Origin: Caryophanales bacterium UBA970
GTDB taxonomy: Bacteria > Bacillota_I > Bacilli_A > RFN20 > CAG-826
Direction: 5' to 3'
NCBI GenBank assembly: GCA_002292805.1
Contig: DBCA01000023.1
Coordinates: 3,278 to 42,065 of the forward strand
Length of the DNA stretch: 38,788 bases
The translations under genes and the position numbers were made by a program. Below are positions 14,436-24,677 of this stretch, one piece after another. The notes beneath the pieces were generated by a model. That model searched no databases and was not told the origin of the DNA. It saw only the letters and a program-made list of their open reading frames with translations. The stretch's first letter is position 1, and each line of letters opens with the position of its first letter.

Positions 14436-15496
14436 ACAACCTTCCTCTTCTTCTCTCTTGTTAACTGAATAAAGACAAGGATGATGAACACCATCAGTAA
14501 GAAGTAAATCCAGGCCATCGCCGCGGCATAGCCATAGCCATACCAAAATGCAGAATCAGGAGCGCCAACCAACATATGAATCCGGGTTAATTCCAAGATA
14601 CCCCCTGGTTCAACAAATAAAGACATGGAGACAACCACGTACACAATGGAGATACCAGTGAATGGCATGATTGATGGTAAGGTAATTTTCCAAAACCGCA
14701 TCCACGGAGACGCCCCATCAATGCTGGCAGCTTCGTATAAACTCGGATCAATTTTTTGCAAACCTGCTAAAAAGATTAAGATGGGAATGCCTGCGTACCA
14801 TAAAATCACCAACATCGAATTGATAACCGTGGTTAAAGGATCGGCAATCAGATCGGGAAGATTATTAACAATATAACTATAGATACCACTGGTTTGTAAA
14901 TTAGGCAAGGTAATGGCGTTTTGTGCGTTCAATTCATTGATGACCGGTCCAGTAGAAATGATCACGGGTAAAAAGAAAATAGTCCGCCACATCGCTTTGG
15001 TTTTGATCGGCATGTTGACAAGGACGGCGATAATGATTGAGAAGACAATGATCAGTGGCACGGCAATCAGCATTCTTCCCACATAGCTTGTATACAGTGG
15101 CACAAGGGTTTGTGAACGGAAAATACTAAGATAATTTTGGAATCCAACAAACGTGGTCACGACCCCTTGTTGAAGATTGTAATAGGCTTGGTGGAAACTT
15201 AAATAAAAAGAATAGATGAGTGGATAAAGGGTAAAGATAACCGCACCAATCATCCACAAACTAATAAATAAATACCCGTATAAGGCATGGCGACGTTTGC
15301 GAGTGATGGTGATTTTCAGGAATGAAAAAAAGACCACATCATGCCCTTTTTCTCGGTACATCACATTGTGTCTTAGCCGGTAGTTGATCTTGGTTAACAC
15401 CGGTGAGACTACCCGTTGCCACCATGCACTGATGGGGGCAAAAAACTTAAGCATTTTTTCTGATAGTTTCACCAAGAATGCGTTGAGTTTTTTCAT
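14432..15496 (-). CDS. Carbohydrate ABC transporter permease (MalF-type) with long N-terminus
   Basis: 354 residues. The EAA loop EAASIDGASPWMRFWKITLP and six helices identify a CUT1 permease. A cytosolic N-terminal extension of about 70 residues precedes the first helix and is strongly basic (KITITRKRRHALYGYLF marks its end), longer than in ordinary MalF-type subunits. The start overlaps the DUF5696 stop (ATGA at 15493-15496) and the stop overlaps the next permease in the same way, so DUF5696 and both permeases are translationally chained, which argues that they act together. Partner of the permease at 13500-14435. Confidence 0.86.
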   Translation of the reverse strand: MKKLNAFLVKLSEKMLKFFAPISAWWQRVVSPVLTKINYRLRHNVMYREKGHDVVFFSFLKITITRKRRHALYGYLFISLWMIGAVIFTLYPLIYSFYLSFHQAYYNLQQGVVTTFVGFQNYLSIFRSQTLVPLYTSYVGRMLIAVPLIIVFSIIIAVLVNMPIKTKAMWRTIFFLPVIISTGPVINELNAQNAITLPNLQTSGIYSYIVNNLPDLIADPLTTVINSMLVILWYAGIPILIFLAGLQKIDPSLYEAASIDGASPWMRFWKITLPSIMPFTGISIVYVVVSMSLFVEPGGILELTRIHMLVGAPDSAFWYGYGYAAAMAWIYFLLMVFIILVFIQLTREKKRKVV

Positions 15497-24600: not shown

Positions 24601-24677
24601 GTGATCACCACACCAAAAAAAACAAGACGAATCCATGTTTTATTGGCATATGCCATCAGGTTTGGTGATATTTTCAT
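21669..24677 (-). CDS. Anchored fusion of CBM-like domains and ABC solute-binding protein
   Basis: 1002 residues, over twice the usual size of a sugar-binding protein. One N-terminal helix (about 16-34) anchors it without a lipobox. Two beta-rich blocks follow: about 100-245, and about 290-425, where SGYYALSFRYRQ and GDHTITMEAVNYAYR resemble CBM6/CBM35-type jelly rolls. A helical spacer occupies about 425-545. The last 450 residues form a type-1 extracellular solute-binding domain: YGLPLTQNFWVTFYRRDI, TWDEVIGILPLLQSYGLNYF, WDFLSWWMSTPIQALFGN. The presumed role is gripping polymeric or long oligosaccharides at the membrane and passing them to the overlapping permeases. There is no strong Shine-Dalgarno. 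The exact CBM family is uncertain. Confidence 0.8.
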   Translation of the reverse strand: MKISPNLMAYANKTWIRLVFFGVVITGGIFIVDQPASPMNQHFSTYDYIQPDFAYPSLTDVFGYPTYSAKQELYTIGGTPKIINPISINDERIQGTLVADDAFNQLDSLGDQNVYQLNANDAIAITVPNLNPSLAAIALDYLILDQGTEDTKVSVQINDQWQFYESQAIVLPSVWQFGTEDFALDRYQNELQPISVKANQWQSMTLRDMRTLHGYPFEFFIFTDDVISFQFVNASVLMTNFRLVPVTPLPTYTQYRASQPNAPIQDTLQLISSRSMSSRSDASIRLRTEQDASAMIYDTQFLRLNTIFGDSWERGGQSITYPITITTSGYYALSFRYRQYLLNDMVTMRSIAINGEIPFQEFKAVAFPYTMQFRNRTLMQTNGEPLYIFLEAGDHTITMEAVNYAYRFAIETMQNIMRQIQQLSLEIKRYTAGSNDLYRDWDIETFFPTASQDLKTWADQLDNMYTQLLGLSLTNQPSQLANVRVSSNRLRTLANQINRLPGLMVQFADGDSSVNQMLGVSLQQMMRSSLEIERIMVHGRVELPRPSATFFVSAYEGGARLVLSFINNPYSANRMDPNDLNVWVNFPRPYIEIMQALIDQLYPGNRPVKLSQMPDENKLILSNISGQSPDLALGINHWIPYDFASRDAALDLRQFPGYTDLVKDFAKGAMIPYVFEQGVYGLPLTQNFWVTFYRRDIMASIGIEDIPQTWDEVIGILPLLQSYGLNYFLPLSQFSGLKPFVATLPFIHQFGGQLYAENGMSTTINAEDTLNGITLMAELYTLYNIPKFVASFYNQFRYGTLPIGIGDLGTYLLLSSAASELDGLWSMDLHPGFRDPVTNQINRSAASGAQASMILANTNHREDSWDFLSWWMSTPIQALFGNILQSTYGKTFFWNSANLDAFGQSSMPQQYKEVVLAQWEYALEASRIPGTYMVERELSNAWTNIVFYGMNPRQAIDEAVRISNREIIYKMAEFGYTLQGQILKPYPVPTIDNIDEWLVAHA

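Follow-up and report, generated by a model that had tools for sequence, protein, structure and literature searches.

Importers of the CUT1 type, which belong to the ATP-binding cassette (ABC) transporters, consist of one binding protein, two permeases and one ATPase. In AlgM1M2SS of Sphingomonas, an ABC importer takes up alginate as a polymer and the chains are degraded inside the cell. The locus described here lies on a 38,788-nt stretch of contig DBCA01000023.1 from Caryophanales bacterium UBA970 (positions 3,278 to 42,065; the whole stretch is referred to as the window) and encodes a long solute-binding protein (SBP), two pairs of permeases, a protein with NHL, TPR and YIP1 domains, and a DUF5696 protein. 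With CUT1 importers such as MalEFGK, UgpABCE and the MsmX-dependent systems this cassette shares permease pairs with coupling loops, SBPs of the SBP_bac_1 type and, in relatives, a UgpC-type ATPase encoded elsewhere. It differs from them in that nearly every copy has two permease pairs at fixed positions, a long anchored SBP, NHL-TPR-YIP1 and DUF5696. Long-chain import followed by internal degradation would be shared with AlgM1M2SS, which has only one permease pair and neither YIP1 nor DUF5696. A YIP1-domain membrane protein as the fourth part of an ABC system is also found in Bacillus, where YknW, a member of the Yip1 family, influences how the ABC complex YknXYZ assembles. However, YknWXYZ is a MacB-type exporter for which no propeller has been described, and the likeness is one of analogy, not of membership. 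The window further shares the combination of GH161, GH16 and permease genes, in most cases without an ATPase gene, with the GH161 clusters of Acholeplasma laidlawii and others (PMC6484121). For A. laidlawii that paper describes two permeases and the lack of an SBP, and its text does not contain the term 'DUF'. In the open-licence literature searched, no paper names DUF5696, and none of the titles and abstract openings listed for YIP1, NHL and transport describes this gene set.

The cassette probably represents a single ABC import system of the CUT1 type whose genes are inherited together and which has additional obligatory parts. More than 100 loci across several dozen genomes keep the same set of roughly seven proteins, and recurrence of the same order in so many loci is far beyond chance. 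The lineages concerned number at least three (Acholeplasmataceae relatives, Paenibacillus and Butyrivibrio). In the window the set is embedded in an operon-like minus-strand run from 30157 to 9298, with the genes in the following order:

27116..30157, minus strand: GH161-type beta-1,3-oligoglucan phosphorylase, 1013 aa, predicted cytoplasmic (similarity to solved structures)
26179..27048, minus strand: lipoprotein with CBM_4_9, 289 aa (CBM_4_9 E 2.9e-7; lipobox-like LTAC by eye)
24733..26166, minus strand: SBP1, separate lipoprotein SBP, 477 aa (weak TIGR03850; lipobox-like VTGC by eye)
21669..24677, minus strand: long SBP, 1002 aa, with an N-terminal anchor, an extra half of about 550 aa and a C-terminal SBP_bac_1 domain
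20780..21706, minus strand: PermA, CUT1 permease of the UgpA/MalF side (NCBIfam UgpA E 8e-15; coupling loop EAAYIDG)
19902..20807, minus strand: PermB, CUT1 permease of the UgpE/MalG side (BPD_transp_1 E 5e-14; coupling loop EAARIDG)
17858..19900, minus strand: NHL-TPR-YIP1 protein, 680 aa (Pfam NHL and Yip1; TPR below cut-off)
15493..17865, minus strand: DUF5696 protein, 790 aa, with an N-terminal hydrophobic anchor (Pfam DUF5696 E 9e-122)
14432..15496, minus strand: PermC, CUT1 permease of the UgpA/MalF side (BPD_transp_1 E 2e-7; coupling loop EAASIDG)
13500..14546, minus strand: PermD, CUT1 permease of the UgpE/MalG side (BPD_transp_1 E 6e-12; coupling loop ESAEVDG)
12358..13497, minus strand: GH16 endo-glucanase, surface lipoprotein (Pfam E 1e-16; lipobox LSAC at the N-terminus by eye)
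11638..12354, minus strand: second GH16 without signal peptide, predicted cytoplasmic endo-glucanase (Pfam E 2.8e-22)
10319..11641, minus strand: GH30 without signal peptide, predicted cytoplasmic (Pfam E 6e-73)
9298..10329, minus strand: LacI-family regulator (Pfam)

From the long SBP to PermD, the gaps between the longest open reading frames (ORFs) of the seven core genes are -38, -28, +1, -8, -4 and -115 nt. This agrees with the first-pass annotation of this DNA, which had placed the seven genes there with an overlap or a 1-nt gap at every joint; its domain assignments (DUF5696, NHL, YIP1, four permeases and an SBP) were likewise recovered by Pfam, for PermA by way of the NCBIfam UgpA model. 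Two of the overlaps, 38 and 115 nt, result from TTG starts in the longest ORFs. The translations offer alternative ATG starts at 21676 for PermA and at 14435 for PermD, which reduce these overlaps to 8 and 4 nt and are likely the true starts.

Conservation of the cassette was assessed through DUF5696. One profile scan had yielded 23 named loci, and a search for PF18952 (DUF5696) followed in 392 genomes from a relative's phylum, with at most three candidates scored per genome; 106 genomes had matches at E 1e-3 and 55 had matches above the cut-off. Gene neighbourhoods were read in 100 regions, each at most 20 kb long, and the counts for DUF5696 and Yip1 cover matches above the Pfam cut-offs. Seven weak partial matches (L147-L153) and two repeats of loci already in the set (L115 and L132) were left out, and merging with the named loci gave 114 distinct DUF5696 genes. 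A YIP1-domain gene lies immediately upstream of DUF5696 in 111 of these; the others are two loci that begin at a contig end (L003, L084) and L146, in which DUF5696 is truncated. Two permeases are found upstream in 106/114, the remaining eight being L146, L004, where the NHL gene is broken by a frame break, and six loci cut by contig ends (L002, L003, L010, L084, L092, L105). Downstream, two permeases follow in 104/114, while five loci leave the contig and five others (L126, L137, L141, L143, L144) carry PermC and PermD fused into one double-length permease. Beyond the upstream permeases, the long SBP comes next in 102/114. NHL and YIP1 are encoded by separate adjacent genes in 36/114, of which L020 and L136 resemble frame breaks of the fused form. 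Another variant occurs in L145 (10962-13742), where PermC reaches 926 aa in all through a long N-terminal extension that is charged and probably forms a coiled coil. Three of four further places hold the cassette (L185, L186 and L187, the upstream part of L185 being cut by a contig end); the fourth is the 3.2-kb contig L057, which encodes DUF5696 and a single permease.

The reverse counts gave the same picture. In the 392 genomes, Pfam Yip1 had 106 matches above the cut-off, 90 of them no more than 3.5 kb away from a DUF5696 on the list. Thirteen of the other 16 regions also hold the cassette, including L167, where the contig stops before DUF5696, so that 103/106 Yip1 matches lie inside a cassette and three outside (G076, G330, G145). 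Conversely, 7 of 97 listed DUF5696 places lack a Yip1 match above the cut-off. In four of these a YIP1 gene is there but falls short of the cut-off (L095, L126, L143, L144), contig ends account for two, and the last is the truncated L146; the 31 Yip1 matches listed below the cut-off include at least two cassette genes (L095 and L143). Counted by genome, cassette-type DUF5696 and Yip1 occur in 48 each and together in 45. A profile of the long SBP, with at most two matches scored per genome, found 75 matches in 46 genomes, 72 of them within 5.2 kb of a YIP1 place and the remaining three in a complete or contig-cut cassette (75/75). Long SBP, YIP1 and DUF5696 are thus near-exclusive to the cassette in the sampled genomes. 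DUF5696 and NHL-YIP1 genes lying mostly apart from such permeases, the outcome that the first-pass annotation had named as a refutation of its complex, is clearly not what is seen, and the observation on which that annotation was built is not only confirmed but was understated.

Outside this set, the annotated record of Paenibacillus cellulosilyticus (L162) has the order ugpC, long SBP, two permeases, YIP1, DUF5696 and two permeases, with NHL and TPR detected by our own profile search; the first-pass annotation had pointed to similar gene sets in Paenibacillus-type sugar loci, and this record bears that out. Butyrivibrio fibrisolvens pNP243 (L163) carries the same cassette without ugpC and with NHL and YIP1 as separate genes. 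The cassette is also present on two human faecal contigs deposited unverified as 'Bacteriophage sp.' (L180, MT835600.1; L181, MT835587.1), which look like mislabelled bacterial contigs. These four records come from plasmid and phage collections. A metagenome-assembled genome titled Staphylococcus epidermidis (L001, CAMBSI010000010.1) contains the whole cassette, with PermA and PermB 92-94% identical to those of the window; its species name is very probably wrong.

All four permeases of the window contain BPD_transp_1, although PermA stays below the cut-off (20.3 versus 26.4 bits) and is recognized by the UgpA model. The glycine of the coupling (EAA) loop is invariant at every position (PermA 105/105, PermB 107/107, PermC 105/105, PermD 103/103). 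The first residue of the loop is a glutamate in all PermA, PermC and PermD proteins and a glutamate (96) or aspartate (11) in PermB, and the second and third positions are occupied by A, S or G. As the loop is kept at all four positions, both pairs should dock ATPases. Family scans of the window found no ATPase gene. A UgpC-like ATPase was present in 11/11 cassette-bearing genomes tested and is 55-58% identical to its counterpart next to the Paenibacillus cassette. In three genomes with at least two cassettes each, G105 (L064, L085), G152 (L073, L098, L125, L168) and G060 (L075, L127), only one UgpC-type ATPase was found at E 1e-60 or better. MsmX is an ATPase shared by many permeases, and by analogy one ATPase probably serves many cassette permeases.

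A tree built from 215 permeases separates the four positions into four groups without swapping; the handful of additional sequences that each group contains are unassigned copies from the same cassettes (L004, L115, L132). Since only two permeases in the tree come from outside cassettes (L094), it speaks for the absence of swapping and not for a single origin. Among 92 complete cassettes, median pairwise identity was 0.52 for PermA, 0.50 for PermB, 0.32 for PermC and 0.35 for PermD, and 0.30 for the long SBP, 0.29 for the last 200 residues of the YIP1 protein and 0.23 for DUF5696. Distances among the cassette proteins correlate at 0.85-0.96, which is expected for linked genes. With PermA and PermB at about 50% identity and the other parts lower, PermA and PermB look like a common, substrate-independent core, to which PermC, PermD, DUF5696 and the long SBP would add substrate choice.

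The NHL-TPR-YIP1 protein is composed of an NHL propeller (residues ~50-350), a TPR region (~352-417), a transmembrane segment and a YIP1 membrane domain (485-654). Pfam detects NHL (E 5e-11) and Yip1 (E 2e-7, 31.3 bits versus a cut-off of 28.6), and five hydrophobic segments from residue 436 onward are in line with a multi-span YIP1 domain (PF04893). That the propeller faces out, as had been proposed, is supported by a hydrophobic segment at the N-terminus and by the pattern of charges. In structure comparison of the predicted model all matches were taken by the propeller part, and none was informative on the YIP1 part. The long SBP had been described as a fusion of a carbohydrate-binding module (CBM) with an SBP. 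Its SBP half holds, with SBP_bac_1 at residues 618-877 and in 38/42 long SBPs scanned. For the extra half of the window protein Pfam gave no CBM family, and CBM_35 occurs in only 8 of the 42 long SBPs scanned, so the CBM label is weak. Of 102 long-SBP relatives, 91 have an N-terminal hydrophobic segment and four a lipobox. An SBP-labelled gene occupies the SBP1 position in 72/102 loci.

The predicted fold of DUF5696 combines a GH129-like beta-sandwich, a TIM barrel and a C-terminal beta domain according to structure comparison, and a profile link to GH129 was also found; a sequence search of solved structures gave no match at E 1. Catalytic columns were read from a profile alignment with the seven GH129/GH101-like ORFs L147-L153, the acid/base residue being taken as E478. 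The nucleophile aspartate is D435 in NagBb and D486 in ZGAL_3152 (PMC5698469). An aspartate occupies the nucleophile column in 24/115 DUF5696 proteins, both GH129 catalytic acids are present in only 2/115, and the window protein has Pro587 and His624 at these columns. DUF5696 thus differs from the GH129/GH101 glycosidases NagBb and ZGAL_3152/DagB in lacking a conserved catalytic pair, in having an N-terminal membrane anchor and in being encoded among permeases. The catalytic-looking L147-L153 exceed the PF18952 cut-off in the genome search, so that the Pfam family DUF5696 contains both cassette proteins and probable genuine glycosidases.

The flanking genes point to the substrate. The GH161 product aligns over residues 4-1004 with the solved GH161 phosphorylases 9qqk (E 3.6e-188) and 9h8v (E 1.1e-187), which places it in this family by full-length similarity; Pfam found no family at E 0.01, NCBIfam GH149 was weak and far below its cut-off, and no hydrophobic segment was detected. 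Together with GH16 and GH30 this identifies the window locus as a beta-1,3-glucan (laminarin-type) locus. Judged by eye from the N-termini, signal peptides are absent from the second GH16 in the window, L001, L002, L004 and L005, and from GH30 in the window, L001, L002 and L004. A cytoplasmic endo-glucanase is most easily explained by import of chains longer than a few sugars, and these sequences suggest that long glucan chains are imported. Across loci, 66 of 152 downstream ORFs were scanned, and 25 of 55 families are listed. The commonest among those listed were putative glucoamylase (11), GH16 (11), GH3 (9) and LacI (5), followed by GHL10 (4), CBM_6 (4), NAGPA (3), NamZ (2) and GH5 (2), with single matches to amylase, NAGidase and GH30. 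Given this variety, the cassette is not restricted to a single glycan. The polymeric glucan proposed by the first-pass annotation is plausible as substrate here, but the cassette as such is not glucan-specific.

Upstream of the GH161 gene, a tRNA-Ala (CGC) lies beside a transposase-like gene (rve, HTH; 30328-31845), a possible insertion hotspot; tRNA and Rfam scans of the window gave this single tRNA and nothing else. At 34643-37412 two overlapping ORFs encode glycine cleavage P-protein subunits, adjoined by the T and H proteins, and at 2805-4907 a 700-aa PF09826 beta-propeller protein of unknown function is encoded (E 2e-93).

Taken together, sequences and predicted structures favour one integrated importer with a non-catalytic, glycan-handling DUF5696 part and a YIP1 assembly part, which we hold to be the probable arrangement. 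Outside the cell, the lipoprotein GH16 would cut beta-1,3-glucan, and long chains would be captured by two SBPs, the long anchored one and the lipoprotein. DUF5696, as a retired glycosidase, would grip the chain with its former substrate groove before delivering it to PermC and PermD. Docking of the SBPs and DUF5696 would fall to the NHL-TPR ectodomain, while the YIP1 membrane domain, on the precedent of YknW, may organise the permeases and keep both pairs together. A shared UgpC/MsmX-type ATPase would power the two pairs, and cytoplasmic GH16, GH30 and GH161 phosphorylase would degrade the imported chains. In a more specific form, put forward tentatively, two permease heterodimers with their own ATPase sites would form a double-engine importer in one YIP1-scaffolded membrane complex, whose propeller carries the retired glycosidase and the tethered SBP and in which the retired enzyme feeds intact chains to the pumps.

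Several observations weigh against the integrated importer. The role of YIP1 is modelled on one distant exporter, and 11/102 long SBPs have no N-terminal hydrophobic segment. In L146 (7386-11809), a decayed or rearranged cassette and the sole exception in the census, a GH30-like gene is immediately followed by a truncated DUF5696 of 339 aa together with PermC and PermD, and YIP1, PermA and PermB are missing. Operon linkage also fits two separate importers for products of one polysaccharide. The genes might accordingly encode two ordinary CUT1 importers that share an operon, one with the long SBP and PermA/PermB and the other with the lipoprotein SBP and PermC/PermD, NHL-YIP1 and DUF5696 being separate surface-binding proteins. 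The two permease pairs, the frequent second SBP, the intact coupling loops and the different evolutionary rates of the pairs would all suit this arrangement, but apart from L146 none of the 114 loci that could be read to both sides lacks one pair, YIP1 and DUF5696 sit between the pairs, and the four positions do not swap in the permease tree. This makes two importers rather unlikely.

It is more doubtful still that DUF5696 acts as a GH129-like surface glycosidase that trims the chain before uptake. The nucleophile-column aspartate is kept without its partner acid in 22/115 proteins, 15/115 have a glutamate there, and ZGAL_3152 is active although it lacks the second residue of NagBb (PMC5698469). 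The catalytic columns are also aligned at low identity, with a register that agrees with the predicted barrel strands. These points, too, tell against a non-catalytic DUF5696, but the rarity of the catalytic pair, the proline and histidine of the window protein and the low overall conservation of the family disfavour an active enzyme for most members, and with it, for this protein, the processing of glucan that had been suggested earlier for the complex. Least probable is a function of NHL-TPR-YIP1 and DUF5696 as a glycan sensor or secretion aid instead of transporter subunits. NHL propellers are known in sensor ectodomains such as that of PknD (1rwi, found by structure comparison), and YIP1 proteins go with exporters and bacteriocin clusters; yet Pfam detects no signalling domain in the NHL-TPR-YIP1 protein, the locus already has a LacI regulator, and the place among the permease genes is fixed even where NHL and YIP1 are two genes. 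The interpretation given in the first-pass annotation is partly supported.

Three parts without assigned function, namely DUF5696, the protein with propeller and YIP1 domain and the additional half of the long SBP, now belong to a fixed set found beside several kinds of glycosidases. DUF5696 gains a predicted fold and a likely role, and bacterial YIP1 domains gain a second ABC context. Uptake of long glycans by Gram-positive bacteria becomes a directly testable question. If the double-engine form of the importer were true, Gram-positive bacteria and their wall-less relatives would gain a functional counterpart of selfish SusCD uptake.
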